A stretch of 32,603 nt of DNA from IMG/VR virus record IMGVR_UViG_3300013137_002972, positions 1-32,603 of that record. One strand, written 5' to 3'. The notes under the pieces are model-generated. The model was not told the origin of the DNA, did not search any database, and saw only the letters and a program-made list of their open reading frames with translations. This document shows positions 1 through 18,839 of this stretch, piece by piece. The stretch is from a virus. The translations under genes and the position numbers were made by a program. How positions within the stretch are numbered: position 1 is the first letter of the stretch; each line of letters opens with the position of its first letter.

Positions 1-777
1 CTACAAGTTATGAATCAAGACTTCCGCTCTCTTCCTGGTGCGATCAGATCCTGGGCATCTTCCATTGCCGGCGGAGTAGGTTGTTAAGACTCTCTTTATT
101 TTGAAGCCTTTGAAAATCGACCGGACTTCCGGAGTATCGTTCAGGCTCAGAATAAACCGTCCGGATATCTTGTCGAGACATTCTCTCAGCCTGGAATAAT
201 CCGCATCTCCAAACGCCGGCGCATAACCAGCCGTGTGCCAATAAGGAGGATCCATATAGAAAAGGGTATCCTCCCGATCGTATCGACGCACGCATTCGCA
301 AGCGTCCAGATGTTCAATCGTTACTCGCTCCAAGCGCCAGTGGACTTCAAGCAGCGTCTCTTCTAATGTCGTGAGATTTAATCGCGGTCCTGAAGTTGCG
401 CCGGTTCCGAAAGTGCGGTCAACAGTTTTGCCGCCGAATCCCATCTTCTGTAAATAGAAATATCGTACGGCCCGCTGGACGTCGGTTAAAGTCTCGGGAT
501 TCATTTTGTTTGCCAAATCGAAGAGCTGCCTGGACACAAGAGCGAATCGATAATACCGCAGGAACTCTTCCAGGTGATTTTGGATTACCCTCCAGAACGT
601 GATCAACTCACCGTCCCTGTCGTTTATGATTTCACACTTTGACGGATTCTTCTTAAAGAAGACCCAGGCCGCACCGCAAAACGGTTCGCAATAGCAAACG
701 TGATCGGACGGAATTAAGGTGATAATTTTTTCAGCGAGCCGACTTTTGCCACCGAGATAACTCAAAGGACTGTTCAT
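1..777 (-). CDS. D12-class DNA N6-adenine methyltransferase (Dam-like)
   Basis: Transfers a methyl group from S-adenosylmethionine to adenine in DNA. Seen in the 258-aa protein: YLGGKSRL at residues 7-14 (the family's N-terminal SAM-binding signature), EPFCGA at 31-36 (motif I), and DPPYW at 176-180 (motif IV, catalytic). The ATG at 777 is chosen over an upstream ATG at 840 because a GAAAGGCAG ribosome site lies just before it and the residues before it match nothing in the family. It is the last gene of the leftward operon, next to an HNH nuclease. In phages such enzymes usually protect viral DNA from host restriction or alter regulation. Target sequence cannot be read from the protein. The family is certain, the biological role is inferred. 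Confidence 0.93.
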   Translation of the reverse strand: MNSPLSYLGGKSRLAEKIITLIPSDHVCYCEPFCGAAWVFFKKNPSKCEIINDRDGELITFWRVIQNHLEEFLRYYRFALVSRQLFDLANKMNPETLTDVQRAVRYFYLQKMGFGGKTVDRTFGTGATSGPRLNLTTLEETLLEVHWRLERVTIEHLDACECVRRYDREDTLFYMDPPYWHTAGYAPAFGDADYSRLRECLDKISGRFILSLNDTPEVRSIFKGFKIKRVLTTYSAGNGRCPGSDRTRKRAEVLIHNL

Positions 778-798
778 ATTACTCTGCCTTTCGTATGC

Positions 799-839
799 TG
801 CCACAGTTCTGAGATGCCAGCTGGCGCGCAACTGTGGCA
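799..839. repeat. Nested palindrome upstream of the methylase gene
   Basis: Perfect 10-bp arms TGCCACAGTT (799-808) and AACTGTGGCA (830-839) enclose a second perfect palindrome, GCCAGCTGGC (816-825). The element lies in the 147-bp gap between the HNH gene and the methylase gene. It shares TGCCAG and AACTG..GCA words with three better-conserved palindromes elsewhere in the window (8361, 22052, 31851) and may be a diverged relative. Confidence 0.7.
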
Positions 840-866
840 CAGTGATGGACAGTCCTTTGTCTATCG

Positions 867-916
867 GTTGAGTCGCTAGAACGACTCGACTTGTTCGCCG
901 GCACTCCTCGTGCCGG
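867..916. other. Two adjacent hairpins between HNH and methylase genes
   Basis: First stem: 867-875 pairs with 882-890 (one G-T pair). Second stem: CCGGCAC (898-904) pairs with GTGCCGG (910-916). Both fall between two leftward genes. Neither is followed by a T-run on the minus strand, so intrinsic termination is not supported. They could be a processing or pausing structure, or another short dispersed repeat. Confidence 0.5.
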
Positions 917-924
917 ACAATTTA

Positions 925-1287
925 TTAAACGTCCGGCATTCCGTGAGAATTATGATTTCCACTTGAAGCCAGATGTTTAAAGGCATATTGGATTCCGCGA
1001 ATGGTCTCTGTCAGGCAGACATTCCAATCTTTCCAATCGCGAAGGTGACCGAATAACCAGTGACAGTGCCGGCACAAGGTAATCAAGTTGTCCGGGCTGC
1101 AGGCTTCCTCCGGATAAATATGTACCGGGAGTAAATGATGAACGTCGTTTGCTCTGCCCCAGAAGGAAGGTTTTGTTTTACAACATTCGCAATCCGGATG
1201 GTTCTTTCTGTATTCACTCTTTGCCCGGTCAATCTTCCAGGAGAGTAAAGGGTGTTTAAGGAAAAGAAATATGTTCCGGAAATTCAT
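925..1287 (-). CDS. HNH endonuclease
   Basis: Metal-dependent DNA nuclease of the HNH (beta-beta-alpha-metal) family. In the 120-aa protein a CxxC pair (C33, C36) precedes the DVHH core (H50-H51), followed by the PDNLITLC strand with N67 and a second CxxC (C72, C75) and further His residues. This is the layout of zinc-stabilised phage HNH nucleases. The start at 1287 is preceded by GGAAGA and lies one base after the stop of the upstream gene. Phage HNH proteins near terminase genes often assist DNA packaging, and this one is two genes downstream of portal and terminase. It may instead be a homing or accessory nuclease. Confidence 0.88.
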   Translation of the reverse strand: MNFRNIFLFLKHPLLSWKIDRAKSEYRKNHPDCECCKTKPSFWGRANDVHHLLPVHIYPEEACSPDNLITLCRHCHWLFGHLRDWKDWNVCLTETIRGIQYAFKHLASSGNHNSHGMPDV

Positions 1288-1288
1288 C

Positions 1289-1687
1289 TTAATCTTCCGT
1301 CGCCCACCAGGGAATAGGAGGATCATTTGGAGCTGCCCAGCCGCATTTGTGCATCAAAGTTTCGATGAACAGACAGGCTGATCGAGCTTCGGCAATAGTC
1401 TCGGTTGTTTTCAGTGCCGACTTTCGCCAGGGGAAGATGTTATCCAAGAAAGAGTGGTTTGTTGTGGAGATAACCTTCGCATATCGATAACGAGCCTTCT
1501 GAAGAAAAGCGCACAATCCAGACAGATCCATTATTACTTTCGGTATCCCGTCTTCGACATTGGGATTCATATTACACGTTGAGCAAAAGGTAGGATCAAA
1601 GTCGATCGGTTGATCGTGTGCATCGACAATGTTCAGTGTACATTCCTTTTGGTCGCAGGGGACATCTATGTATATGGAACCTTTCAT
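1289..1687 (-). CDS. Uncharacterised cysteine-rich phage protein
   Basis: A 132-aa protein that I do not recognise. The start at 1687 is firm: GGAGGT precedes it and its ATG overlaps the portal stop as ATGA. Cysteines at 11, 16, 35 and 38 (the last two as CSTC) suggest a small metal-binding site near the N-terminus. The rest looks helical with no membrane segment. Translational coupling to the portal gene suggests co-expression with the packaging genes, but no function can be assigned. Confidence 0.75.
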   Translation of the reverse strand: MKGSIYIDVPCDQKECTLNIVDAHDQPIDFDPTFCSTCNMNPNVEDGIPKVIMDLSGLCAFLQKARYRYAKVISTTNHSFLDNIFPWRKSALKTTETIAEARSACLFIETLMHKCGWAAPNDPPIPWWATED

Positions 1688-3213
1688 CTTACCTCCGTCC
1701 CGTTGATCGCATAGGCGGTCAGGGCGTCGGCGACCAGGACATTGACTTTCTTGGGATCCCAATCGGCAAAGAAATGCCGGATCTGCAGTTCGCACTCTTC
1801 CGGTGATTTGCTATCGCGGATGATCTGCGCTATCGGCGCGAGGCTTCCGCGAAACGCTTTCGCAAGGTCAGGCGCAGCAGTTTGAGCAACCCGGTCCATC
1901 TGCTCGACCGGGATCCTGCCAGGGCGATTCAACCTGGTGGGCGAATATGCTGCAGCAAACGGAACCGGCGGCCCGGCTGAAGCGTCACGCTCAATCGGCA
2001 GGCCAACCTTTTCCGAAAGGGCATACAGGCCATCGTCCGTAACCCGGAGGCCGGCTTGTTTCAGTGAAGTGAGCAATGATATTGCTGAACTTACTTTGGC
2101 ATCCGATTCCGAGCCAAGCGAGATCAGGGGCACATTACCCGGTAATCTGTTTATTGCCACAAGCTGAGTAATCAACTGATCCCTCAGAGTCTCTGCCAGC
2201 ATCTTGCCATCGAAGCGCCTTATATCCTGGCGGACGCCTTCCTGGACATTTGCCTGACCAGATCCCAGGCCCGACGGCTGAGCCTCCGTCGTCATTGTTT
2301 GACCCAGAACCAACTTTGACATTTCCCGTTCACAAATCGTAATAAACTGCTGATAGGCGGTGCCGGAGTTTGCTGCTGCCGCTTCTTTAAGTTCGACGCT
2401 TGTGCCTTCGGAGATCACGAGACCGCCGAGCCGGCATGAAAGCGCGAATGCTCTTTCCAGAATTGAACGACCCTCTTCGTCCCGGAATTTACCAACCATG
2501 AAAGGCGTGCCATATTTCTCAAGAAACTTAGCCCACCATTCCCTATCCATCGCGGCCAACAGCCACCAGAACAGAATGGAGCGCATGGGGCCGCCCCAAT
2601 TATCAGGAGTGCTTAACAAGTGACCCCGATGAACTATGTATCTGTTCGGATCGACGTCATGCTTTGTGAGCAATGGTTGTCCATTCGTAGGATTAACGTC
2701 ATAGATCATCATCCGTCCGGAGGTGAAGTCGAGAAGTTGATATGGCACTGGAGTAAGGCCGGCGATTCGATAACCCTTTCCGACAGCAACGAAGGTCTTT
2801 TCGATTACCGCAACAGGATAAAGAGTTGAGTCGAGAAGAAATGAAGCAGCCCTCAGCCAACCTTTACAGGCTGAAACCTCTGCATCTATCGCGTTGGCTG
2901 TGTCGATATCGGCCTGCAGCTTCCGGTCAAACGGCATAAACGACATCGCATCGCCCAGGACAGCCAGCTTTCGCTTCATCAGTTCGCTCTGCAGATGCGA
3001 ATTGGTCAATACCACGTCCCGGTAAAGAGAGAACAGATCCCTTGTCTCGCCTGATTCCGCAGCCGATATACAACCCATGACTCTTTCCTGCGTCATGCCC
3101 TGGGCGATCGCCGGCGTCTCCCATCGTGTATCATTGACCGTTAACTGTTTTGTCGGAACTCTGAGATCCAGAATCCTCGCAACAAGTGGCCGAAGGTAAT
3201 CTTTAATATTCAT
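1684..3213 (-). CDS. Mu gp29-like portal protein (DUF935)
   Basis: Forms the dodecameric ring at one capsid vertex through which DNA enters and leaves. The 509-aa protein has the expected length and the DUF935 pattern: an N-terminal segment on DTRWETP and TSV-like motifs, a central region reading PYQLLDFTSGRM and IVHRGHLLSTP, then W-rich WWLLAAMDREWWAKFLEKYGTP, typical of Mu gp29. It overlaps the terminase stop by ATGA and feeds directly into the gene below it. Unlike Mu, the downstream neighbour is not the MuF head gene, which lies on the other strand near 19.7 kb. Confidence 0.93.
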   Translation of the reverse strand: MNIKDYLRPLVARILDLRVPTKQLTVNDTRWETPAIAQGMTQERVMGCISAAESGETRDLFSLYRDVVLTNSHLQSELMKRKLAVLGDAMSFMPFDRKLQADIDTANAIDAEVSACKGWLRAASFLLDSTLYPVAVIEKTFVAVGKGYRIAGLTPVPYQLLDFTSGRMMIYDVNPTNGQPLLTKHDVDPNRYIVHRGHLLSTPDNWGGPMRSILFWWLLAAMDREWWAKFLEKYGTPFMVGKFRDEEGRSILERAFALSCRLGGLVISEGTSVELKEAAAANSGTAYQQFITICEREMSKLVLGQTMTTEAQPSGLGSGQANVQEGVRQDIRRFDGKMLAETLRDQLITQLVAINRLPGNVPLISLGSESDAKVSSAISLLTSLKQAGLRVTDDGLYALSEKVGLPIERDASAGPPVPFAAAYSPTRLNRPGRIPVEQMDRVAQTAAPDLAKAFRGSLAPIAQIIRDSKSPEECELQIRHFFADWDPKKVNVLVADALTAYAINGTEVR

Positions 3214-4883
3214 ATTAGTGATACTCCTGTCATCTTATTCTTGTGGTCTGAACTATGATCGGGCCGCATGTTATTCTTTGGAAGATTTGAGGCTGTGCTG
3301 TATTGCCCGACTTGTGCGCCTGATGCCTGCAGCGGGCCGAATGGACTGACCAGGCCATGCAGGGAATTTTTCGTTGAATCGAATGTATCGCCGTGATTGC
3401 CGGCGCTGTCTATTAGATTGTCGAAACTGCCGCGACTCCGCATGACCAATCGGAAATCATCTTTTATCCAGCGATACTCGGGCAGACAAAGTTTCCCGTC
3501 GTCCATGGTATTGACCAGGAGATTTCCCAGATAGGCTTTATAGAGTATGTTCTCGCCCTGGTAGGTAATCTTCTCTGAAGAAACAACAAGTTCAACCGGG
3601 CAGATTTGAGCAAACTCCTTCCTAACTTCAGCCGCCCAGAACTTTTCAGAAGTCGCGTCTATCACCAGCCGGCGCGGTTTACGGTTCGGGCCCAGATCGC
3701 AGGCTTCCTTAAGATATGCCTTGGCCTTGTCAGGATCCTGCGTCTTGAACCTGATAATCAGCCGCGCAAAAAAAAGCATTCCGATCTGTTCGGTTATGGT
3801 AATGGCGAATGGATTGGATTTCTCCTTTTCCGTTGTGGCTGGATCCGCGCCGACGGCAATCGTGCCAGGTCCGAGTATATTGCGCCAGTTGGGCGGGAAA
3901 TCGTCTTCTGCTGCCAGGCATTTGTTGCGGCCCATTATCATGGCATTGCTGATCGACTGCAGACTCACTGCGGCAGTTCCGCCGGTCTTGAAAATCAAGG
4001 CATAGTTTCGATCCCAGGCATCACGGTCCAGCGATTTTGCCCGGTGTTCAACCGGTGACATTGGTTTCCTGGTCTTCGTGTCGAACAGATGCACGCCGGC
4101 GAGCGCAGTATCCCAGGCATCCGCCCGATGCACCATCACGCCGGATTCCGACTCGTACCAGTGACCTGCTGCGTTTGCCTTTTCAGGCCCGAACTCAACC
4201 CCCAACGGAGGCACGGCCAATTCGTAAGAATAATGACTGTCATCGTTTGGCGGCGTGGTAGCCATGATGCAGCGGAACTTCTCATCGCTCGACATGATCG
4301 GCTCCATCGCTTCCCACAAATCCTTGAAGTCGCGAATAAACCCGATCTCATCAATATAGACATGTCCGGAATAACTCCTGGCAGTTGCGGGGTTCGGAGC
4401 AATAACGAGCGAGCGGCTGTACTTCGACCGGCTATGGTAGATCTTCGTTTCCAATTTCTGATGCTCGAAGACATCGCAGAAATCGTCGAAGTTGAGGCCG
4501 TCGACAGAAGTTTCCATTCTCTGGCCATTGGCCTGAACAGCCTTTCTAAAATTATCCAGAACCTCATTCCATATCTGCGCTTCCTTAACAACAAACTCCC
4601 GGCCAAGAGGAAGAGAGGCAGAGGCATAAGTTACCAGCAGGCCAGGCATCTCCATCATGCTGCGCAGGGCCTTACTTGCCAGGGTTCGGGATTTTCCAGA
4701 TTGCCGTCTCCACAGGAGCAGCATGAGTCCCAAGTCATCCCGCCAAAACGGCGGGGCCTGGTATGACCTTAATTTAAGCAGAGGTTCAGGCTTGCCTGAT
4801 CCGGGTTCAGGAGCCAACCTGCCCTCCGAAGGGAGCTGGCAGGGGCGGTCAGACTTGTTTGCTGTTGTTTTTTTTGGAGACAT
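3210..4883 (-). CDS. Terminase large subunit (Mu gp28-like)
   Basis: ATP-driven DNA packaging motor and headful nuclease. In 557 aa: a Walker A-like WRRQSGKSR (58-66), Walker B HVYIDEIGF (D178-E179) and the coupling motif MATTPP (208-213) make up the ATPase. The nuclease half begins at GADPATTEKE (D347) with a second acidic strand at VIDAT (D409) and a late GDTFDS segment, as in the RNase H-fold terminase nuclease. Order DUF3486, TerL, portal is as in Mu gp27-gp28-gp29. The start lies two bases after the DUF3486 stop with only a weak ribosome site, so translation is probably coupled. Confidence 0.95.
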   Translation of the reverse strand: MSPKKTTANKSDRPCQLPSEGRLAPEPGSGKPEPLLKLRSYQAPPFWRDDLGLMLLLWRRQSGKSRTLASKALRSMMEMPGLLVTYASASLPLGREFVVKEAQIWNEVLDNFRKAVQANGQRMETSVDGLNFDDFCDVFEHQKLETKIYHSRSKYSRSLVIAPNPATARSYSGHVYIDEIGFIRDFKDLWEAMEPIMSSDEKFRCIMATTPPNDDSHYSYELAVPPLGVEFGPEKANAAGHWYESESGVMVHRADAWDTALAGVHLFDTKTRKPMSPVEHRAKSLDRDAWDRNYALIFKTGGTAAVSLQSISNAMIMGRNKCLAAEDDFPPNWRNILGPGTIAVGADPATTEKEKSNPFAITITEQIGMLFFARLIIRFKTQDPDKAKAYLKEACDLGPNRKPRRLVIDATSEKFWAAEVRKEFAQICPVELVVSSEKITYQGENILYKAYLGNLLVNTMDDGKLCLPEYRWIKDDFRLVMRSRGSFDNLIDSAGNHGDTFDSTKNSLHGLVSPFGPLQASGAQVGQYSTASNLPKNNMRPDHSSDHKNKMTGVSLI

Positions 4884-4885
4884 GG

Positions 4886-5479
4886 TTAGAGATTCTCAGG
4901 CCGTTCGCCCCAGATTGCTTTGACCAGGCGATCCATCTTAACTTCCTTATCGCCCTTGCCCTCCACAATCTTCCGAACCTGTTCATTCTCGAAATATTTC
5001 AGGATGTATTCTGCCGTATCGCGGTGGAATTTATCCCGCGTAATGGCTATCACTTCATCCTTCTGGGACAATTTCCGCTTTTCGAGTTTGAGCTTTTCGG
5101 CAAAAAGAATTGAATCAAGCAAAGGTCGAAGTTTCAGCAGATCGTTTTCAGCCAGGGCATCGAGCTTTTCGTCAAGATCTCCGGCAATCCTGGTTACTAT
5201 GCTTTGTCCCAACGAATCGCCGCCGGCTGCCTGGGCCATGCGCATAGCCAGTTCGGCCCGCTCCCTGATCTTTGCCATTTGCCCTTCGGACTTCAGCCAG
5301 TCCTGATAACCGCCCTTGCGCCATTCGGAGAGATTCTGTTCGGTGAGATCCATGAAGCCATTGGTTTTGAGCCAGGCAAGAATCGAAGGACCGCTCTTGC
5401 CGTCGAGAAGCTGTTTATTAACTTCTTCCCGGATCTTTGCCGGTAGCCTTGCAAATTTTCCCTGGCGTGCGCGGCTCAC
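4886..5479 (-). CDS. Mu gp27-like protein (DUF3486), putative small terminase
   Basis: DUF3486 proteins precede TerL in Mu-like phages and are thought to act as the DNA-recognising small terminase. The 197-aa protein begins with an HTH-like region (KFARLPAKIREEVNKQLLDG..LAWLKTNGF), has LSEWRKGGYQDW as expected, and then a long helical, charged stretch likely to form a coiled coil. It starts with GTG, preceded by AAGGAG, and overlaps the upstream stop as GTGA. Family assignment is good; the small-terminase role is inferred from position. Confidence 0.87.
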   Translation of the reverse strand: MSRARQGKFARLPAKIREEVNKQLLDGKSGPSILAWLKTNGFMDLTEQNLSEWRKGGYQDWLKSEGQMAKIRERAELAMRMAQAAGGDSLGQSIVTRIAGDLDEKLDALAENDLLKLRPLLDSILFAEKLKLEKRKLSQKDEVIAITRDKFHRDTAEYILKYFENEQVRKIVEGKGDKEVKMDRLVKAIWGERPENL

Positions 5480-5778
5480 AATTCGGACTCCTTTGGATTC
5501 TTTAGCACCTCACCGCGCTGATAGAATAAGACTCCTTCGCTGGTAGCCTGCCAGGCTGGGATCGCATGCAGGCAATCAATCAGGGAAACTACAAATCCTT
5601 TATCTTTCAGGAAGGCCAAGGTTGCTACGATTTCGGATTCCGTGATTTGGAAATCGACTCTTTGTCTGCGGATCAACATTCGTTTCATCGCATCCGCGGT
5701 ATAAGAGTTCGGATATCTGACTGCCAGAAATTCAAGGCAGACAATTCTGAGTTCTTCCTGTTGAGCAATTGTGAGCAT
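5476..5778 (-). CDS. Small winged-helix-like phage protein (VpaChn25_0724-like)
   Basis: A 100-aa protein whose pattern fits the small winged-helix-like proteins that sit just before DUF3486 in many Mu-like phages: an N-terminal EELRIVCLEFLA helix, TADAMKRML, then ITESEIVATLAFLKDKGFV and a short beta wing ending in a TSEG turn. The start at 5778 is preceded by GAGAAA and follows the peptidase gene by eight bases. An upstream in-frame ATG at 5889 would overlap the peptidase and is not favoured. Role unknown, perhaps a DNA-binding helper for packaging or regulation. Confidence 0.7.
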   Translation of the reverse strand: MLTIAQQEELRIVCLEFLAVRYPNSYTADAMKRMLIRRQRVDFQITESEIVATLAFLKDKGFVVSLIDCLHAIPAWQATSEGVLFYQRGEVLKNPKESEL

Positions 5779-5786
5779 AATATTTC

Positions 5787-6485
5787 TCAAGATACTCGCA
5801 GCAGAAAACCTTTGGCTCCCATCATCTGCTGCTGAACCTGTTTCCATGACAATTTCACGTGTCCTTTGAACCCATAACCCAAACCCCATGAGTTACAGTT
5901 ATCTACTCCATAGGGATCAAATAAATCTCCGGCAACACAATGCCCTCCGACAAACTTATTACTGTCAGCGATTGTTCCGTCCGCTCGCGGGCGCATCCAT
6001 GCCTGGGTAATATTGAATCCGAAGAGAACAACAGGACACCGATGAAAAGCATATTTAAGTTCATTGATCGTGCGGATGTCGTACACGTCAACAGTGACGG
6101 TTAAACCTTCTGGGTTCTTAAAGGTAAGCCATTTTAAAGTCTGCGCCGCCTTAATGGCTGTTTCAAGCGAGGATCCTTCCTGGTTGTCATTGTCAATTCG
6201 TTTCTCCACATCGTAGAACAGATCGGCGTCATAACTCTGTTTTACACCAGTCGCCCACCAGCGAAGCGCTTCACAAACTGCCGTCATCCCGTAAGCTGTG
6301 CATTTAGGCGTTTGCATTTGATCATCGGCAGCCATTAAGAGAGGCCGTCCATCCACGTAATCTGGAGCGGTCCATTTTTTGGGAAGTAGTATGCGTTCAT
6401 GGGGTGAAGCCCCAATGCGCATGCGCAATCCGGAATGGAAGTTTATAAAGCGTTGCTTAACGGTTTTGATGTCTTGTGCGTTCAT
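5787..6485 (-). CDS. Papain-like (C1 family) cysteine peptidase
   Basis: Predicted cysteine peptidase of 232 aa. The papain active site is visible in order: oxyanion Gln56 six residues before nucleophile Cys62 (QMQTPKC), then Gly-Gly-His182 (VGGHC) and Asn198 in CNSWGLGYG, followed by KGHVKLSW as in papain's NSWG..WG..GY region. The central EGSSLETAIKAAQ matches the segment of bacterial C1 peptidases that precedes the His. No signal peptide is seen, so it acts in the cytoplasm or in the virion unless released by lysis. Start overlaps the lipoprotein stop (TAATG). In phages of this type this place usually holds lysis or accessory genes; a peptidase of this family there is unusual. Substrate unknown. 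Confidence 0.85.
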   Translation of the reverse strand: MNAQDIKTVKQRFINFHSGLRMRIGASPHERILLPKKWTAPDYVDGRPLLMAADDQMQTPKCTAYGMTAVCEALRWWATGVKQSYDADLFYDVEKRIDNDNQEGSSLETAIKAAQTLKWLTFKNPEGLTVTVDVYDIRTINELKYAFHRCPVVLFGFNITQAWMRPRADGTIADSNKFVGGHCVAGDLFDPYGVDNCNSWGLGYGFKGHVKLSWKQVQQQMMGAKGFLLRVS

Positions 6486-6991
6486 TACTTTGCTCCTTTG
6501 CCTGTGCTGTTGTCCTGGGAATGCGATTGGCTTGCCCCGGCGCTGCCGGCCTGGATTGACGAATTGTTTACTGGTCCCTGGAACGTGAAATTATAGGATG
6601 GCTCACTACTGCCACCTCCGCTGCTTATCTCCGAGATGCCGTAACCTGCGCCGGCATAGATCGCCGAATCAGCCAGGACGCCGAAGAAGTTCTTCGCCAC
6701 TTCTCCCCAAGTCATTGACGTCTCTGGTAGGGCAAGCAGATCGATGCCAACTGCAAAAGCAAACTCGCCCGGACGCATCCCAAGATTCACCGCCTTGAAT
6801 AATTGCCGTTTCTCTTCCGGCTTAATTTGAGGGGCAGCCGAAATAGCTCTTTGATTCATGGCAATCTCATTCCTGGATGCCATGTAATAACTCACAGGTC
6901 CGATCGTGAGTCCACCTGGCGAAGCACAGCCCGTAAGACAGATCACCAAGGACAGGCAGCAGAGCGTAAAGATAGAACGTACTGATTTCAT
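6485..6991 (-). CDS. Predicted outer-membrane lipoprotein
   Basis: A 168-aa lipoprotein. The signal peptide has a basic start (MKSVR), a hydrophobic core and a clear lipobox LTGC with the lipidated Cys at residue 22, followed by Ala-Ser. The start at 6991 is chosen because AAGGAAGG precedes it; longer versions lack a signal. The C-terminal third is rich in Gly, Ser, Asn and Gln (low complexity). It lies between patatin and papain-like peptidase genes. It could be an o-spanin-like lysis factor, though it is long for one, or a conversion or exclusion protein on the cell surface. Confidence 0.8.
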   Translation of the reverse strand: MKSVRSIFTLCCLSLVICLTGCASPGGLTIGPVSYYMASRNEIAMNQRAISAAPQIKPEEKRQLFKAVNLGMRPGEFAFAVGIDLLALPETSMTWGEVAKNFFGVLADSAIYAGAGYGISEISSGGGSSEPSYNFTFQGPVNNSSIQAGSAGASQSHSQDNSTGKGAK

Positions 6992-6992
6992 A

Positions 6993-7172
6993 TTAACCTT
7001 CCTTTCTTGTGTTATCCTTTCGTAGATACTCGACGCTTTCTTCCAATGCGCGGCAGTCTGCAAGCAAGCAGTCCCTTGCTTCCGTTGCCGTCGAAATCGG
7101 TAGAGCAGCCCTCTCTTCATACCAGACGAGAATCTGTTTGCTTAGAATATCGATTGCCAGGTCATGGTTCAT
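6993..7172 (-). CDS. Small uncharacterised protein (59 aa)
   Basis: A 59-aa helical, acidic protein without a recognisable family. The start at 7172 overlaps the patatin stop as ATGA and has AAGGA upstream, so it is probably translated with patatin. The stop lies one base before the lipoprotein ATG, and this gene's 3' end carries the lipoprotein's ribosome site. It might bind or regulate a neighbour; no function can be given. Confidence 0.6.
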   Translation of the reverse strand: MNHDLAIDILSKQILVWYEERAALPISTATEARDCLLADCRALEESVEYLRKDNTRKEG

Positions 7173-7981
7173 TTCGATTGATCCTTCTTGAGTCTGGCCA
7201 GAGTCCAGTCGTAGCATTTCCTTATAAGAGAGTGATCGAAATGCATCATTCCCTTGTCGGTCGGCACATCCGGCCAAATTACGGTGACGTTGGGTTCATC
7301 AGCCATGGCCGCAACGAGATCGAGCTTTTCGTCGTTGCACTTGATATTCATTGCCCGGATAGCCGAAGTGATAAGGTTATCGCGGCCCTTGTAATCGTGA
7401 GGGCTGTCAGAAGGGATCACAACATAGACATGTTCGCATTCGCGCCAATCGCCGATCATTGGAACACTGGCCCGCAGGCCGCCGTCCCAATAAGGACAAC
7501 CATCAAGCAATTCCACTGGCGGGAAGATGCAGGGAATCGACAAACTGGCGAGAACGGCCTTTGCCGGAGATTCGGCCAGTTCCGGGCGCATGGTATTAAC
7601 GAGATCATTGGTCCGTTTATTCACTGCCCAGGTTGACAGGGGGATCGTCATTTCGTCGAAGTTTGCCGGCAGAAGAGTGTCGAGAAGCCTTTCAATCTTT
7701 TCTGTCTTGAAGATATGATCGACCCAGTGCATTCGAATTTGCCAGAGAAACAATTTCTCCCGTAAGTCGGAATCCTCAAGGTTGTTGATGATATTGGCCA
7801 GTATCACAGGCGAATAACCTGCCGACAGCAAGGCCCCGGCGATCGCGCCGGCGCTGGTGCCATGGATGGAAGTGTATTGAATGCCCAATTTCTCGAACGC
7901 CAGGAGAACGCCGGTCAACCTGCAAAGGCCGGTAATTCCGCCGCCGCCAAGAACAAGAGGGATTTCTTTCTGGTTATTCAT
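7169..7981 (-). CDS. Patatin-like phospholipase
   Basis: Predicted lipid acyl hydrolase using a Ser-Asp dyad. The 270-aa protein shows all three patatin landmarks: the glycine-rich oxyanion loop LGGGGITG (11-18), the nucleophile elbow GTSAG with Ser43, and the DGG motif with Asp166. Length is that of a stand-alone catalytic domain with no signal peptide. It would act on the inner face of the cytoplasmic membrane. The start overlaps the stop of the upstream DUF2730-like gene (TAATG). In a phage this could help dissolve membranes at lysis, act as an abortive or superinfection weapon, or remodel host lipids. The enzyme family is certain, the role is inferred. Confidence 0.92.
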   Translation of the reverse strand: MNNQKEIPLVLGGGGITGLCRLTGVLLAFEKLGIQYTSIHGTSAGAIAGALLSAGYSPVILANIINNLEDSDLREKLFLWQIRMHWVDHIFKTEKIERLLDTLLPANFDEMTIPLSTWAVNKRTNDLVNTMRPELAESPAKAVLASLSIPCIFPPVELLDGCPYWDGGLRASVPMIGDWRECEHVYVVIPSDSPHDYKGRDNLITSAIRAMNIKCNDEKLDLVAAMADEPNVTVIWPDVPTDKGMMHFDHSLIRKCYDWTLARLKKDQSK

Positions 7982-8304
7982 TACTGCTTTCTTATTTGTT
8001 CAATGATGCCTTCCAGTTTGCCCACGGCACGTTCGATAACCTTGAGATCCTCTGAATGGGCAAGTTGCATCTGTCGGGTGAGACTGAATAATTTGTCGTG
8101 AACTTCCTCGTTATGCTGCTTGAGTATGGCAATTTCCTGATCGCGTTTCTGGCAGATATCGCTTAAGTCACCCTTGCTCACGAAGTCCTTATAGAGTTCT
8201 TCCGGTATGGTAGGTTTGCGGCGGAACGAATAAAACATCGCGACCAGGCAAGTCACATTTGAAATTACTGCGATCAATTTCCAGAGAAAGTCCCCGTCAG
8301 ACAT
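7981..8304 (-). CDS. DUF2730-like membrane-anchored coiled-coil protein
   Basis: A 107-aa protein with one N-terminal membrane helix (about residues 7-27, LWKLIAVISNVTCLVAMFYSF), a short basic stop-transfer (RRK), a proline hinge and then a long charged coiled coil to the C-terminus. This matches the architecture of DUF2730 proteins found upstream of DUF3486 in Mu-like phages, although I cannot confirm homology by search. The start at 8304 has GGGAG eight bases upstream. It may belong to the lysis functions or serve as a membrane platform. Confidence 0.65.
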   Translation of the reverse strand: MSDGDFLWKLIAVISNVTCLVAMFYSFRRKPTIPEELYKDFVSKGDLSDICQKRDQEIAILKQHNEEVHDKLFSLTRQMQLAHSEDLKVIERAVGKLEGIIEQIRKQ

Positions 8305-8360
8305 AGTATGCTCCCATGTTTCTTTTCCGGGAGCGTAACTGATGGGGAAGAATGCAGACA

Positions 8361-8386
8361 GGCGTTCTGGCAATAGTGCCAGTTAA
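8361..8386 (-). repeat. Copy 1 of a dispersed 25-bp palindromic element
   Basis: On the minus strand it reads TTAACTGGCA-CTAT-TGCCAGAACGCC. Arms CTGGCA and TGCCAG form a hairpin. Apart from its four-base loop it is identical over 21 bases to the element at 31851-31875, and nearly so to that at 22052-22076. It sits in the 140-bp gap between the membrane-protein gene and the DUF2730-like gene. Nothing else is evident in that gap. Confidence 0.8.
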
Positions 8387-8444
8387 AAGGAAGGAAAGAC
8401 TACCAGATCAGTTTACTGCAAATCTCGAATGTAATTAATCTCGC

Positions 8445-9290
8445 TTATCTATCTGTATAAACCGTCAATTTGTCTGAAGATGGATCATATTCAGACTTAA
8501 CATAAGAAATCACAAGAGCCCCCAGGGCATTCTTTCCACGATAGGTCATATAAAATTCAGCCACGGTTCCTTTGTCAACGAAACGAGTCTCCACATGTTC
8601 AAAACTCCTGGGATCATTCATATTCTTTTTGACGAATGATACAAGTCGAGGCACTGAACCGTCGGTATCAATAACCGCCAGAATCTGTCTCATGCGCATC
8701 TTTGCTTTCTCATCTTTAACTCGGTCGGCCTCTCTTGTATAATATTCCCGCAGCTGTTTCTCGTATAACATCCGCTCCTCTGAGATTCTAATGATGCTTT
8801 GTTCGTAAATATAAGCATCCTCAAACAATTTGATTTCGATATCATGACGAATCCTACTCCTCTTAATCGGGATGGTTGCGCATCCATTACCATAGGATAC
8901 CTCCATGGAAATGGAATCATTCTTTATTTCGAGCAATTTCCCTGTTTGACTCTCTCCATCATTATAATAAACCGTAATTTGCTGCCCTATTTTCGGTCGA
9001 GAGAACTTCTGTAAATAGACATTGTTCCAGTAGTTTGAACGCTCATTCCAATTTGGCTCCACAGGGGCTGCCTCTTTTGTTTCGACAGGTTCGATCTTTA
9101 CTGGCTTTGGACTTGGTTTTGCGTGCACGGAAAGAGATGTCGTACGGGGTTCAGCAACCTGTTGCTTCTTTTCTGGCATCCACAAACCGTAGATCGATAG
9201 CAGAAGAATGATTATCAGAAAAGCTGTTCCACAGCCACAACCGGTTCTTTTATAGCGATGTTCAATAATAATTTTCTGTGGTTCACTCAC
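8445..9290 (-). CDS. Single-pass membrane protein coupled to the repressor
   Basis: A 281-aa protein starting with GTG at 9290, which overlaps the repressor stop as GTGA and has GGAGG in front. A cytoplasmic basic N-terminus precedes one membrane helix (about 20-38, GTAFLIIILLLSIYGLWMP). Then follow a Pro/Lys/Glu-rich spacer, an SH3-like beta region (about 100-150), a charged helix, and a C-terminal domain with VSFVKKNMNDPRSFEHVETR and TYRGKNALGALVISY. I have seen that last motif in phage and bacterial membrane proteins but know no function for it. Co-translation with the repressor means it should be made in the lysogen; superinfection exclusion is a reasonable guess. Confidence 0.75.
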   Translation of the reverse strand: MSEPQKIIIEHRYKRTGCGCGTAFLIIILLLSIYGLWMPEKKQQVAEPRTTSLSVHAKPSPKPVKIEPVETKEAAPVEPNWNERSNYWNNVYLQKFSRPKIGQQITVYYNDGESQTGKLLEIKNDSISMEVSYGNGCATIPIKRSRIRHDIEIKLFEDAYIYEQSIIRISEERMLYEKQLREYYTREADRVKDEKAKMRMRQILAVIDTDGSVPRLVSFVKKNMNDPRSFEHVETRFVDKGTVAEFYMTYRGKNALGALVISYVKSEYDPSSDKLTVYTDR

Positions 9291-9784
9291 CCCCCGCCTC
9301 CATTCGCCTTCTGATCCTCTTCTAGCATCTTTCGCGATTCGTGTTTTTGCCGTTTTACCTCGTTTGGATAATTCGCAATACACCATTTCCGATATTCTTC
9401 TATAAGAAAATCAATCTGTCTCTTAAAGGCATCAAAATCTTCGGGTGCCCTACAAATGGAATTAGCCTGATGACGAAGATCATCCATCAGTTTTTGAGTT
9501 CTCTTGTCCGTTTGTAGTTCAGTTTCTTTTATAAAGCTGACCTCATCTGAAGCGAGCACTATCGAGTCTTCCCGTCCGAGCAGCCAGTCAACAGTAACAC
9601 CGCAGCGGTTAGCAATTTCTTGTAATATAACCGCATCGGGTATTCTCCCGTCTTCGTAACGCTGATAATTCTGCGGATTGGAAATGCCCAGAAAACGAGC
9701 AAATGAGGCTTTTTTCATGTCTTTTCTTAGACTTCTGAGCCTTAATGAAAAAATACTTTTATCACCAATTTGGTGTTGACTCAT
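9287..9784 (-). CDS. XRE-family phage repressor
   Basis: Lysogeny-type repressor. The 165-aa protein has an N-terminal helix-turn-helix of the XRE/Cro-CI class (about 14-70): LRSLRKDMKKASFARFLGI, then NPQNYQRYEDGRIPDAVILQEIANRCGVTVDWLLG, which is diagnostic. The C-terminal half is helical and lacks an autoproteolysis (LexA/CI) site, so induction would need another trigger. The start at 9784 has GGAG six bases upstream. It is divergent from the Ner-like gene with only 28 bases between the start codons, so both are controlled from one short region. Confidence 0.88.
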   Translation of the reverse strand: MSQHQIGDKSIFSLRLRSLRKDMKKASFARFLGISNPQNYQRYEDGRIPDAVILQEIANRCGVTVDWLLGREDSIVLASDEVSFIKETELQTDKRTQKLMDDLRHQANSICRAPEDFDAFKRQIDFLIEEYRKWCIANYPNEVKRQKHESRKMLEEDQKANGGGG

Positions 9785-9822
9785 AACCGCTCCGGTGTTA
9801 ATTGTATCACTAATGAATCAAG
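9761..9822. promoter_or_regulatory. Divergent repressor/early switch with candidate operators
   Basis: The two divergent start codons (9784 leftward, 9813 rightward) are 28 bases apart. Visible elements: perfect inverted repeat CACCAA-T-TTGGTG (9763-9775) within the first codons of the repressor; direct repeats GGTGTTGA (9772-9779) and GGTGTTAA (9794-9801), 22 bp or about two helical turns apart; imperfect dyad TTGTATCA-CTAA-TGAATCAA (9802-9821). A rightward -35-like TTGACT at 9776-9781 has only poor -10 candidates near 9797-9804. A leftward -10-like TACAAT is the complement of 9801-9806. Assignment as operators is inference from symmetry and position. Confidence 0.6.
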
Positions 9823-11543: not shown

Positions 11544-13427
11544 ATGTTCGAGGGCTGGAAAGAAGCTGAAATATCGGAATATCAAGCGCGGCGACGTATT
11601 CTGGAAAAAGCCGACAGCGTCTCCGGCAGCTCCAAGAAGAAGGCCGCGGCTGCTGGAGTTTCTTATGCAACACTCTACCGGTTGCGGGAACTCTGGCAGA
11701 TGGTTGTTGATTCCGGTAATCATCGTCTTCTCTTACGCTCCAAGTCTCCTGGCCGCCCGGCTGTTGCAAAGCATCTCTCCCAGGACGCTGTTAATCGGTT
11801 GCGCAGGCAGCGGATCAAGTGCGGATCCACGGCGTTGACAATCCAGCATTTTGCCGACGATCCGCTCTGTCCGGATTCGATCCGGGAAAAGATTCTTGCA
11901 ATGAAGGACCCGCACACGATTCCAATCTCGCTTCGTCGCGCCTGCAACGTAACGCCGGAAATGGAAGCCCTCTATCGCGGACCGGTTGCCTATCAGCATG
12001 TCGCGTTCAAATGCCGGCACGAGCCAATTGTGATTGATCCCGTAACCCAGCTGAAGCGGGATCTCATGGCCGGCGATATCTACATTTCTGATGATATGTC
12101 CCGAAACAGATATTTCTGGTTTGAACTGGACGATCCGGACATGGAGACCAGGTCAAATCGCGGCGATAAACTCGCCCAGAAATACGGCGTCGCCCTGGGC
12201 CGCCAGGGTCTCTATACAATGGATGGCCGGGGCAAGTGGCTAGGTTTGACTCTCATCGGCTGCGCCCGCGATGCCTATACCTCTGCCGATGTCCTGCGCC
12301 ACATGCGCGAGATCCTTGCCGAATACGGCAAGCCCCGCCTCGGCTGGATCCTGGAGAAAGGCTGCTGGGCTGCGCGTAAGGTGGACGGTGAGGAAATCTG
12401 GGCAACGGAAGAAGAGCGCATGAATGTTGTAGGCGGTTTGCGCTCCCTCGGTTTCTCTGTTGATCACGTTCATACATCCGAAGGCAAGGCGCTGATCGAA
12501 GTCGGCTTCAATCAACTCCAGAGAGTTCAAGCCCTTCAAGAAGGCGCTCCGGATATCGGTCGCAAACGCGGCGAGATGGAGCGCGAAACAAAATTGATTC
12601 TGCGGATCCAGGCCGGAGTCATGCACCCTGCGGAAGCCGGCCTGGAACATTTTACCGAAGCACTCGGGCTCGATCGCAAAGCCTGCAGCTGGATGAATGC
12701 CAGGAAGAAATTCGGACGCATTCAAAACGGCATCCCGGATGAAAACTGGGTGCGGGACACAACGCGCTTTGCTTTGAAAAAACTGGAACCTCAAGACATG
12801 GGAGTCTTTATGCCGATAAAATTCGAGACAGAAATCAGGCACGGCTGCGTCGAAAAGAAAATCGCCGGTCGGTCTTTCAGATTCACAATGCCGGAACTCT
12901 TCGGCGAGCTTGGTGCCGAGTACAGGCTTTATGTCATGTTCGACGATTCCAATCCCGCCGCCGGCGCGGAGATATACAACCTGGAAACAGGGACCCGGAA
13001 CATTCGCAACTGGAAGTTTATGGAACATCTGGGCAATGCCGAATGGGAAAAGGAACGTCCGCTGTTCGGCTATTCAGACGAAGTCGCCGAAAGTTCCGAA
13101 CGCCGGCGCAGAAATGCGCGGGCATTCAAGGCTGCTTATGCCGGCACGGGCATCTTTGGCAAGCGTGCCGCAACCGCAATCGAAACCAGGGACGGTCGCG
13201 GCAATCTATCTTCCATCTCAGTTTCCGGCATGTCCGCCGTAGCCCCGGCGAAAGCGGACGAGGCAACCCGCCCCGCGAAAGCCTCCTTCATCCGGCAAGG
13301 CCGTAGCGGGGTTGGTTTGCTTCCCAATGAGGATGCTTCGACAGATTCGACAAGCTCACCGCGAACTGATTTCAGGTCGAAACGGAGTCGGAAAATCTTG
13401 AACAGGCTGGATTTGGTGGAGGCGTAA
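11544..13427 (+). CDS. MuA-like DDE transposase
   Basis: Catalyses the strand transfer by which the phage inserts and replicates. 627 aa: an HTH at about 32-52 (KKAAAAGVSYATLYRLRELW), a second DNA-binding region, then an RNase H-fold core from about 170 to 340. First catalytic Asp is D183 or D184 (GDIYISDDMS), and the last acidic residue is E319 (KALIEVGFNQLQRV). Where the second Asp is expected (PxxxxxDNG) the protein has ILEKGCW, with Glu271. A beta-barrel and basic region follow to about residue 545. The tail (550-627) is low-complexity and is encoded by two short repeats. The start follows AAAGG. Followed by MuB. Confidence 0.92.
   Translation: MFEGWKEAEISEYQARRRILEKADSVSGSSKKKAAAAGVSYATLYRLRELWQMVVDSGNHRLLLRSKSPGRPAVAKHLSQDAVNRLRRQRIKCGSTALTIQHFADDPLCPDSIREKILAMKDPHTIPISLRRACNVTPEMEALYRGPVAYQHVAFKCRHEPIVIDPVTQLKRDLMAGDIYISDDMSRNRYFWFELDDPDMETRSNRGDKLAQKYGVALGRQGLYTMDGRGKWLGLTLIGCARDAYTSADVLRHMREILAEYGKPRLGWILEKGCWAARKVDGEEIWATEEERMNVVGGLRSLGFSVDHVHTSEGKALIEVGFNQLQRVQALQEGAPDIGRKRGEMERETKLILRIQAGVMHPAEAGLEHFTEALGLDRKACSWMNARKKFGRIQNGIPDENWVRDTTRFALKKLEPQDMGVFMPIKFETEIRHGCVEKKIAGRSFRFTMPELFGELGAEYRLYVMFDDSNPAAGAEIYNLETGTRNIRNWKFMEHLGNAEWEKERPLFGYSDEVAESSERRRRNARAFKAAYAGTGIFGKRAATAIETRDGRGNLSSISVSGMSAVAPAKADEATRPAKASFIRQGRSGVGLLPNEDASTDSTSSPRTDFRSKRSRKILNRLDLVEA
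13232..13259. repeat. Inverted repeat in the transposase C-terminal coding region
   Basis: Arms GTCCGC (13232-13237) and GCGGAC (13254-13259) flank GTAGCCCCGGCGAAA-type sequence. The pattern TCCGCCGTAG...GGCGAAAGCGGA resembles short palindromic repeats dispersed in many environmental bacterial genomes. Here it is read in frame as residues 563-572 of the transposase. Confidence 0.6.
13336..13367. repeat. Second invasive-type repeat in the transposase tail
   Basis: CTTCGACAGATTCGACAAGC followed by TCACCGCGAAC. It resembles the widespread TTCGACAAGCTCAxxxCGAAC short repeats. It encodes Ser/Thr-rich residues about 598-609 of the transposase, outside any recognisable domain. Confidence 0.55.
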
Positions 13428-13460
13428 GAAAGAAGTCAGAAACAAAAAGGAGATAGCGTC

Positions 13461-14447
13461 ATGACAGAACAGCAGAAAAGAGTCAGTGAATTGATAGACC
13501 GGATCGAGAAACATCAGAGAGCGCTTAGATTGTCGGACAACCAGTTTGTTGCCAGGTATCAGCGTTACCTCGGCTCAACAAAGACCTGGAGAGAGAGACT
13601 GTGCGGACGGTCCTGGAACGAGTTCGGTTCGCGGCTGGATAAGTGGGAGAAGAAGCTCAATGCGTTCGTTGCCGATCTCGATGGCGGCACGGCGATGGAT
13701 GAATTTTATCGCGAGTTGCCCATAGCCCGTTACGGTTTTGCCGTCTACGATGCGCTCCAGGGAGCCAGGACGGATCGCCGCTGCGCAATTCTGCCGGGCG
13801 GTTACGGCATTGGCAAAACCTGGACACTGCGCCGCATTGCCCAGGAGAATCCGGCCAGCGCGGTCTTTATGTCTGCAAACGAGACCTGGAAGGACAGCCG
13901 CATGGCGATAGTAAGAGGCATGGCCTTTGCGCTGGGTTGTCCAGAAGGTCTGTCGGCAGCAGCCACCTTCCGGAACATAATCGAGTTCCTCAAAGCAAAC
14001 CCGATGACGCTCCTGATTGACGAAGTCCACGAGGGCGGCGTCCTTCTCATGAAACTCGTGAAGGCCCTCATAAACGAAACTCCCGCCAAGTTCCTGCTTG
14101 GGACATATCCAACCGCCTGGAACCGGCTTGTCTCGGGATCGACCGATGCAACCGCCGAGGCGCAGCAGCTTCTTGGCCGGACCATGAAGCCAATCAAAAC
14201 AGAATGGATCAAAGGTTTGAACCTCAAGGATGTTGAAAAATATCTGGAGTTGTCCACCGGGCTTAACGGGGAATGCAAACTCCTGGCGGAACAGATCCTG
14301 CCCGACATCCGGCGCGGCGGCAATTTCCGCGTTCTCGCGGACGCCATTGAACTGGCGAAAATGAACGCCGATGAAACCGGCGAAGAGATTGATGCGGAAT
14401 TTATCCAGGCGGCAGTTCACGAGCTTCTGCCCAGCGAAAGGAAATAG
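13461..14447 (+). CDS. MuB-like transposition AAA+ ATPase
   Basis: ATP-dependent DNA-binding protein that selects target DNA and activates the transposase. 328 aa. An N-terminal HTH-like region (about 20-65, LRLSDNQFVARYQRYLGSTKTW) is followed by Walker A GGYGIGKT (113-120), Walker B TLLIDE (183-188), sensor-like FLLGTYP and a C-terminal helical bundle (about 250-328) as in MuB/TniB-type proteins. An AAGGAG site precedes the ATG. It lies 33 bases downstream of the transposase, in the Mu A-B order. Confidence 0.93.
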   Translation: MTEQQKRVSELIDRIEKHQRALRLSDNQFVARYQRYLGSTKTWRERLCGRSWNEFGSRLDKWEKKLNAFVADLDGGTAMDEFYRELPIARYGFAVYDALQGARTDRRCAILPGGYGIGKTWTLRRIAQENPASAVFMSANETWKDSRMAIVRGMAFALGCPEGLSAAATFRNIIEFLKANPMTLLIDEVHEGGVLLMKLVKALINETPAKFLLGTYPTAWNRLVSGSTDATAEAQQLLGRTMKPIKTEWIKGLNLKDVEKYLELSTGLNGECKLLAEQILPDIRRGGNFRVLADAIELAKMNADETGEEIDAEFIQAAVHELLPSERK

Positions 14448-14706: not shown

Positions 14707-15267
14707 ATGGCTAAGAAAATTAAAATTCACAGCGAAGATTTCACACCTGCAGAGATCGGTTTCCTTGTCGGCGAACTTGCCGAACAGGAAATACAGTCGG
14801 CCCAGATTATTGCCGATATGAATGCCGAACTCGACAGCGTCCGGGCGCGGTACGAAAGCAAACTTCAGATCCTGCGAAGCAATATCAATCTCCGCCGCGA
14901 GGCATTGGAGCAGTGGGCGGAAGCGCATGCAGAACTGTTTATCTCTCCCAACCCGCGATCGATGGAGTTTGAACGCGGGACGATCGGGTTCCGCACCGGC
15001 ATGCCGAAGCTGAAACTACTTCCCAGGCGCACCTGGGAATCGGTGAAAGAGTACCTCGAAAAATCAAAGCAGCTTGAATACACCCGCGCCGAAATCTCCG
15101 TCGCCAGGGATTTACTGATTGCCGATGCGGATACGCTGGGTGAGGAAAAGCTCAAGGCAATCGGAGTCAAGGTTGTCCAGGACGATGCCTTCTTCTGTGA
15201 CATTAAGGCCGACCGTGCGGTTAAGCAGGACGTTGCAAAAAATGAAGACGTACGAAATAAAAACTAA
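14707..15267 (+). CDS. gam: Host-nuclease inhibitor Gam
   Basis: Binds DNA ends and protects them from host RecBCD-type exonucleases (a Ku-like family). The 186-aa protein has the expected size and Mu Gam layout: a long N-terminal coiled coil (about 10-80, IGELAEQE-like and INLRREALEQWAEAHAELF), then RSMEFERGTIGFRTGMPKL, which is the Gam signature, and a basic region followed by the EEKLKAIGVKVVQDD strand. AAGGA precedes the start. It sits in the early operon as in Mu. Confidence 0.92.
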   Translation: MAKKIKIHSEDFTPAEIGFLVGELAEQEIQSAQIIADMNAELDSVRARYESKLQILRSNINLRREALEQWAEAHAELFISPNPRSMEFERGTIGFRTGMPKLKLLPRRTWESVKEYLEKSKQLEYTRAEISVARDLLIADADTLGEEKLKAIGVKVVQDDAFFCDIKADRAVKQDVAKNEDVRNKN

Positions 15268-17547: not shown

Positions 17548-17739
17548 ATGCAAATTACAATCTCGGCAACTGAAGCGCAGCGATTGATTCGCATCTGGAA
17601 ACAGAGGGCATTGTCGCAGTTACGTTGCGAACAAGAAACCACGGACGAAACCGGGAAGCGCCTGGTCTCCCACGGAGCCGCCTGTTACGCAAACTGCGCC
17701 CTGGAGCTGGAAGAACTTCTGAAAGGGAATGAACGATGA
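17548..17739 (+). CDS. Small uncharacterised helical protein (63 aa)
   Basis: A 63-aa helical protein (ISATEAQRLIRIWKQRALSQ...ALELEELLKG). AAAGGAAG precedes the ATG and the stop overlaps the next gene's start (ATGA), so it is translated with the Spo11-like gene. No family known. Confidence 0.65.
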   Translation: MQITISATEAQRLIRIWKQRALSQLRCEQETTDETGKRLVSHGAACYANCALELEELLKGNER

Positions 17740-18662
17740 AAGAGATCTTTATCGAAAAGAATTTCGGAAGAGATGCAATCCAGATGATCGACATGATCAA
17801 TCGGATTCTAGATGACTATTCACGGCAAGGTTATGATCTCTCGTTGCGTCAACTCTATTATCAACTCGTGAGTAGGAATATTGTTCCGAATACTGAAAAA
17901 AGTTACAAGAACGTTGGAAGTCTTGTTTCCGATGCACGCCTTGCCGGAATGGTAGATTGGGATATGATAAAAGACCGTGGCCGTGAAATGATTTCAAATC
18001 CACACTGGGGAGATCCGGCGGATTTTGTAAAATCTGTTGCGCCGCAATATCGTTTTGACTTGTGGGAAGATCAGCCATCTTACGTTGAAGTGATGGTGGA
18101 AAAACAGGCTTTAGAAGGCGTGCTCTTGCCAGTCTGTCGAAGTCTCGATGTGCCGTTCACAGCCAACAAGGGGTACTCTTCTTCGTCGGCAATGTATGAA
18201 GCAAGTAAACGCTTCTTGGAACGCGCTGAGGCTGGGAAAAAACTCTACGTTGTCTATCTCGGCGACCATGATCCGTCCGGAATAGATATGTCTCGCGATG
18301 TCGAACAACGCCTGGATCTCTTTCTAAAAACATCGCTTTGCCGTCATGACGAAATCGGACCTGAAGAAATTCCGATTATCGAAGTGAATCGTGCGGCACT
18401 GAACATGAATCAAATTCGCAAACTAAATCCTCCTGAGAATCCAGCGAAAATAACTGATAGCCGAGCCGCAAATTACATCTCACGCTTTGGGCGTTCATCG
18501 TGGGAACTGGATGCAATTGAACCGCGTCAACTTGCCGACCTGGTGCGGCGTGCTGTAGTTAAAATCATGGACTATCCGCTTTTCAAAAAGAACGAACAGA
18601 AACAGAAAACAGGCCGCGCACAACTTCTGGAATTTGCAAATACTTATCTTGAGAAGGAGTGA
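17736..18662 (+). CDS. Spo11/Topo VI-A-like (Mini-A-like) protein with Toprim domain
   Basis: A 308-aa protein that follows the Spo11/Topo VI subunit A order. A winged helix carries LSLRQLYYQLV (35-45, candidate catalytic Tyr41/Tyr42; Spo11 has RDIYY here) and a second motif VGSLVSDARLAGMVDWDM. A Toprim fold then shows VMVEKQALEGVL (Glu122), KGYSSSSAMY (where Spo11 has GxPD..TR) and YLGDHDPSGIDM (Asp177, Asp179). These acidic residues bind Mg2+ and the tyrosine would attack DNA. Top6A-like proteins of this short form (Mini-A) have been reported in bacteria and mobile elements. Activity and partner are not known here; no B-subunit gene is in the window. Confidence 0.85.
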   Translation: MKEIFIEKNFGRDAIQMIDMINRILDDYSRQGYDLSLRQLYYQLVSRNIVPNTEKSYKNVGSLVSDARLAGMVDWDMIKDRGREMISNPHWGDPADFVKSVAPQYRFDLWEDQPSYVEVMVEKQALEGVLLPVCRSLDVPFTANKGYSSSSAMYEASKRFLERAEAGKKLYVVYLGDHDPSGIDMSRDVEQRLDLFLKTSLCRHDEIGPEEIPIIEVNRAALNMNQIRKLNPPENPAKITDSRAANYISRFGRSSWELDAIEPRQLADLVRRAVVKIMDYPLFKKNEQKQKTGRAQLLEFANTYLEKE

Positions 18663-18665
18663 ATA

Positions 18666-18839
18666 GTGAAGGTCTTCTTACGCTGCCCGAAATGTCGGAA
18701 ATTGTTATGGCGAACTCTCGCTCTCGATTATGTTAGCGTTGAGACAAGTCTTTCTTGTCAATGCTTCTTGTGTCTGCACGTTTGGAGGCCGCGCCTCAAG
18801 TCTCTGGTAAAACAGATCCTTAAAAAGGACGGGGCCTAA
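18666..18839 (+). CDS. Small zinc-ribbon protein resembling Mu Com
   Basis: A 57-aa reading frame starting with GTG, with AAGGAG upstream inside the end of the previous gene. It reads VKVFLRCPKCRKLLWRT..., then CQCFLC, so Cys7, 10, 31, 33 and 36 can form a zinc site. The N-terminal FLRCPKCRKLLWR resembles Mu Com (RCxxCxKLLFR), a zinc-finger RNA-binding protein that activates translation of the mom gene. No mom gene is evident nearby. Confidence is for the gene; equivalence to Com is only suggestive. Confidence 0.6.
   Translation: MKVFLRCPKCRKLLWRTLALDYVSVETSLSCQCFLCLHVWRPRLKSLVKQILKKDGA

Follow-up and report, generated by a model that had tools for sequence, protein, structure and literature searches.

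Mini-A, which is smaller than every other known version of the Topo VI-A/Spo11 cutting module, was reportedly defined by Takahashi et al. in 2020, and a C-terminal motif is said to separate it from Topo VI and Topo VIII. No activity of Mini-A was reported in the reviews consulted on the topic. One example, given in the legend of Fig. 4A of a review, is a protein of Pseudomonas phage NP1 (PMC7614492). In the Top6A subunit of M. mazei, the catalytic tyrosine is Y106, the metal triad is formed by E202/D254/D256 and the clasp by R102/E342 (PMC13040014). The Top6A site is bipartite, the tyrosine of one subunit meeting the Toprim domain of the other, and prior to cleavage the tyrosine is still about 10 A distant (PMC13040014). 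Residues 44-67 of M. mazei Top6A make up an N-terminal latch, and a triple mutation in this segment abolishes relaxation by Top6. Here, a window of 32,603 nucleotides, the whole stretch of viral DNA analysed, was found to encode a protein of this type. The protein type is already known, but its location, within a Mu-like phage, is uncommon for a Mini-A.

Family assignment and distribution

The gene of the type IIB topoisomerase A-subunit-like protein (P0001, 308 aa) was located at 17736..18662 on the plus strand, from the ATG at 17736 to the TGA stop ending at 18662, and was assigned from PHROG, tblastn and AlphaFold2 matches. A sequence-only reading of this DNA had given the ORF, strand, length and motif positions (Y41-Y42, E122 and G-D177-H-D179-P-S-G) correctly. 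The start of the gene overlapped the stop of a 63-aa ORF without a family (17548..17739, plus strand) by 4 nt (ATGA), and a 57-aa ORF (18666..18839, plus strand), Cys-rich and zinc-ribbon-like as read from its sequence, began 3 nt past the Mini-A stop. The latter gave no Pfam match and is reminiscent of Mu Com. The overlap and the ORF that follows suggested that Mini-A is translated as part of the long same-strand gene run, beginning near 9795, in which it lies.

PHROG 6247 ("DNA topoisomerase"), a large phage family annotated before this analysis, matched residues 1-304 with E = 7e-108, and the NP1 protein showed 42% identity over 99% coverage with E 1e-74 (tblastn). Based on this homology, the tyrosine-bearing winged helix, the Toprim glutamate and DxD motif and the viral carriage without a B subunit, the 308-aa protein is Mini-A. 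The name had been suggested from the sequence, and it agreed with the PHROG family, the NP1 homology and the Top6A-like models; family, fold and motif evidence likewise supported an enzyme of Topo VI-A/Spo11 type that has no B subunit. The Pfam search of the protein yielded nothing useful and no significant TP6A_N match, and neither did searches of PDB sequences and single-sequence searches yield anything useful.

Mini-A was found in 76 phage records (tblastn), and relatives were encoded by at least 547 IMG/VR stretches and by 115 stretches of bacterial and archaeal genome contigs, the carriers of the latter including Chloroflexota, Bacillota, Pseudomonadota, Actinomycetota, Planctomycetota, Bacteroidota and one Methanimicrococcus MAG. 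Three IMG/VR sequences joined the window protein in one group (99/80) of a 91-protein tree; L002 was its nearest neighbour, and NP1 was distant. In the MAG of the archaeon Methanimicrococcus (G085), Mini-A was encoded at positions 10001-10858 of L142 and the TP6A_N search found no Top6A; Top6A was present in 30 other genomes of the same class, and its lack in the MAG may reflect incompleteness.

Predicted fold and active site

The whole protein was modelled by AlphaFold2 from 61 sequences with a mean pLDDT of 92.9, and the N-terminal 112 residues were predicted separately with a pLDDT of 86. Structural candidates from Foldseek were then re-scored by VIA-align, and the relation to Top6A was seen only after this re-scoring: Foldseek alone gave no PDB match for the model at E <= 0.001, and no Topo VI was among the matches listed against PDB and BFVD. 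When profiles were compared, the match to 30 archaeal Top6A fell short of significance (E 0.029, 27 columns around the DxD motif).

The Toprim half (residues 97-277; 18024..18566, plus strand) matched Top6A, MksG/JetD and Spo11 structures at Z 8.7-10.7. Its best match was Top6A 1d3y (Z 10.7, rmsd 5.3, 154 residues), and it also matched Top6A 9o0g (Z 10.5) and 2q2e (Z 9.5, rmsd 3.3), MksG 8b7f (Z 10.2), JetD 7til (Z 8.9) and Spo11 8urq (Z 8.8), all four families spanning residues 88-278 of the model. The winged-helix (5Y-CAP) domain (residues 12-82; 17769..17981, plus strand), taken alone, also matched 1d3y best (Z 8.6, rmsd 2.4, 69 residues), with positions 11-82 of the model on 72-143 of the chain. 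Since both spans are equal, the offset is a constant 61 and Tyr42 falls on residue 103, reportedly the catalytic tyrosine of M. jannaschii Top6A (Nichols et al. 1999). On M. mazei Top6A 9o0g, with model 9-81 on 72-145, Tyr42 landed at 105-106. The structure check that the sequence-only reading had proposed thus came out for Top6A in the winged-helix half as well as the Toprim half. A C-terminal helix (residues 280-307; 18573..18656, plus strand) lies past the end of the Top6A match at 277, and such an extension occurs in the relatives, with 27-84 residues after that position.

R38, Y42, E122, D177, D179 and E257 were invariant in 61-64 Mini-A relatives, and the invariance of Y42, E122, D177 and D179 in 64 of them indicated that these motifs are not due to chance. 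Y41 was replaced by Phe in 4 of the 64, so that, judged from sequence conservation, Tyr42 (codon 17859-17861, plus strand; inside the winged-helix domain, as is R38) and not Tyr41 is the catalytic candidate. In 30 archaeal Top6A, the equivalents of R102/Y106/E202/D254/D256/E342 did not vary and were all shifted by the same offset of 9, and the order of residues in Mini-A (R38-x3-Y42, E122, D177-x-D179, E257) matched the M. mazei set. The two proteins agreed exactly in the distance from R to Y (4) and within D-x-D, and differed by 3 to 16 residues in the other spacings. The putative pairing of E257 with M. mazei E342 rests on this order and spacing, without a significant sequence alignment. A model that places the tyrosine at a distance from the Toprim acids had been named as a refuting result, a test which is unsound for this fold because the Top6A site is bipartite and its tyrosine lies at a distance before cleavage.

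Predicted cleavage and possible relaxation without a B subunit

The window, one linear and possibly fragmentary record, gave no match to HATPase_c, Topo-VIb_trans or TP6A_N; the earlier statement that it holds no B subunit was therefore upheld for HATPase_c and Topo-VIb_trans. HATPase_c was also absent from 50 other records carrying Mini-A, and no constant neighbour able to replace the B subunit was found, the commonest being a primase-like family at 15 of 77 Mini-A loci. Only 3-11 residues precede the winged helix in every relative, which leaves no room for the latch of Top6A. Mini-A has thus kept the active site and the cleavage clasp, and the strand-passage elements, B subunit and latch, are gone, so that cutting of DNA is predicted, and relaxation in the Topo VI manner is not. 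This prediction bears on how Spo11 arose from a topoisomerase.

These results made it probable that Mini-A is the DNA-cleaving half of a type IIB topoisomerase, carried without the B subunit as an accessory protein, and likelier a controlled break-maker than an ATP-driven topoisomerase, since the B subunit and the latch needed for relaxation by Top6 are both missing. DNA breakage by Mini-A is accordingly a prediction. By analogy with Top6A, the active form would be a homodimer, with Tyr42 of each subunit attacking the strand held by the metal site of its partner (E122, D177, D179), and a double-strand break with two 5'-phosphotyrosyl links would be left, as in Top6 and Spo11. R38 and E257 may form a clasp that keeps cleavage low, and controlled Spo11-like breaks could then feed recombination or replication. 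The association of the NP1 Mini-A with annealase, Cas4-type exonuclease, ligase, primase or helicase genes fits such a role. We infer the break-making role with moderate confidence, and it is likelier than relaxation independent of a B subunit or hydrolysis without the tyrosine.

Less likely, though the likeliest of the alternatives, is a true topoisomerase: a type IIB enzyme lacking the B subunit, by which phage DNA would be relaxed or decatenated either independently of ATP or with the help of an ATPase that comes from the host or has escaped recognition. It accounts for the conservation of all catalytic residues together with the R/E clasp, for the family annotation as DNA topoisomerase and for the position of the NP1 gene amid primase, ligase and helicase genes, and Topo VIII of Microscilla marina was reported to relax DNA without ATP (PMC7614492). 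Against this, the latch that relaxation by Top6 requires is absent, the 50 carrier records lack a GHKL ATPase, and no family accompanies the gene constantly. A Toprim nuclease like JetD or MksG, hydrolysing DNA by metal ions and leaving the winged-helix tyrosine unused, is improbable. MksG and JetD were indeed among the best structural matches of the Toprim half, and 9 of 61 relatives matched DUF2399 weakly and 2 matched JetD_C, but MksG is without a tyrosine candidate in its 5Y-CAP-equivalent domain (PMC10123090), whereas Y42 and R38 of Mini-A are invariant in 64 sequences and the winged helix fits Top6A best, in the register that places Y42 on residue 103.

The slot in a transposable phage and comparison with known systems

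The transposable-phage setting assumed in the sequence-only reading was confirmed by a MuB-like transposition ATPase (13461..14447, plus strand; phrog_296 8e-16; AAA_22, Phage-MuB_C (below cut-off)) and a Mu Gam-like protein (14707..15267, plus strand; PF07352 1.2e-21). A 627-aa ORF in the MuA position (11544..13427, plus strand), between ParB and MuB, is the presumed transposase by position; Pfam and PHROG gave no match for it, and its hhalign comparison with Mu/B3 MuA was not significant. No relatives were found by a scan of 84,980 genomes with this protein, or by scans of IMG/VR with the Gam and MuB proteins of the window. By eye, D178, E271 and E319 of the MuA-position protein form a possible triad, E271 lying within an invariant GWILEKGCW, with Glu in place of the middle Asp of DDE transposases. 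Two ParB-like proteins and portal, terminase, head and tail genes are also encoded in the window. Its minus-strand part at 1-9784 holds portal and terminase to the left of the repressor, apart from the head genes, and a patatin-like phospholipase (7169-7981, minus strand; PF01734, E 3e-25) lies amid the phage genes.

The nearest available relatives were two related transposable-phage fragments, L082 and L083. Their MuA-position proteins (L082 3411-5255; L083 10001-11938), adjoining MuB, showed 62-65% identity to that of the window over the alignment, and their MuB proteins 65-67%. Both kept the gene order of the window, with genes for 199, 117 and 168 aa and then a MuF-like head gene. In L082, unlike in the window, TerS- and 137-aa-like genes came after the neck gene and shared the strand of MuA and MuB. 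The slot between the 168-aa gene and MuF, which holds Mini-A in the window, was occupied in these fragments (L082 8693-10075; L083 17443-19003) by DUF5131/radical-SAM-like and small ASCH-type genes, the matches lying below the Pfam cut-offs and the ASCH match coming from L083 only. Mini-A was absent from both records. Among 50 Mini-A phage records, none had a convincing MuB or Gam, and the GC3 of the Mini-A gene was 0.43, compared with 0.55-0.67 in the flanking genes. Among 47 genomes with Mini-A, Gam was found nearby only in L093, a Clostridia prophage with a Gam-family gene at 13447-13899, about 2.6 kb downstream of Mini-A. L093 was rejected as a second transposable case, its surrounding genes resembling an ordinary prophage replication module, and a Gam match in G063 was rejected as a neighbour of Mini-A, being on a different contig from L106.

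L082 and L083 have other genes in the slot, and 50 Mini-A phages lack convincing Mu genes. The best reading of Mini-A is therefore that of an accessory gene, recently gained by this phage and placed at a variable position that separates its early region from the head genes; it probably does not belong to the transposition machine. In the transposable-phage case Mini-A moves as cargo between phages that replicate differently, which argues for a function independent of any one replication mode. The idea of help with transposition or target cleavage, put forward from the sequence, was not sustained, since L082 and L083 lack the gene, 50 Mini-A phage records gave no convincing MuB or Gam and the GC3 is low. 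An action of Mini-A in replicative transposition here, by target cleavage or by resolving the topology of transposition, is very unlikely: Mini-A does lie in the same-strand gene run after MuB and Gam, but unrelated cassette genes fill its slot in the two relatives and its carriers in general are not Mu-like. No likelier is the recruitment of a Spo11-like break-maker by a replicative-transposition phage in order to cut DNA of the phage or its host and so resolve or redirect the products of transposition; if true, this bacterial virus would have two DNA-breaking systems, unrelated to each other, that act jointly.

Compared with the exemplar NP1, the window protein is homologous over its full length, is likewise borne by a virus without a B subunit and has the same catalytic residues. 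In NP1, the gene lies between DNA ligase and Sak4-like annealase genes, whereas the host here is a transposable phage. With Top6A, Mini-A shares the winged-helix and Toprim folds and the order of R, Tyr, E, DxD and E at similar spacing; it differs in having no B subunit, no N-terminal extension or latch and no significant TP6A_N match, and in its extra C-terminal helix. Topo VIII is also a type IIB enzyme of mobile elements but includes a B part, which Mini-A is without. JetD and MksG, of the Wadjet and MksBEFG systems, have a Toprim half of the same type (Z 8.9-10.2), but MksG has no winged-helix tyrosine (PMC10123090), and Mini-A keeps Y42. Spo11 has its cleavage core in common with Mini-A (8urq) and makes breaks without strand passage; it is eukaryotic and needs B-like partners, none of which was seen for the Mini-A of the window.
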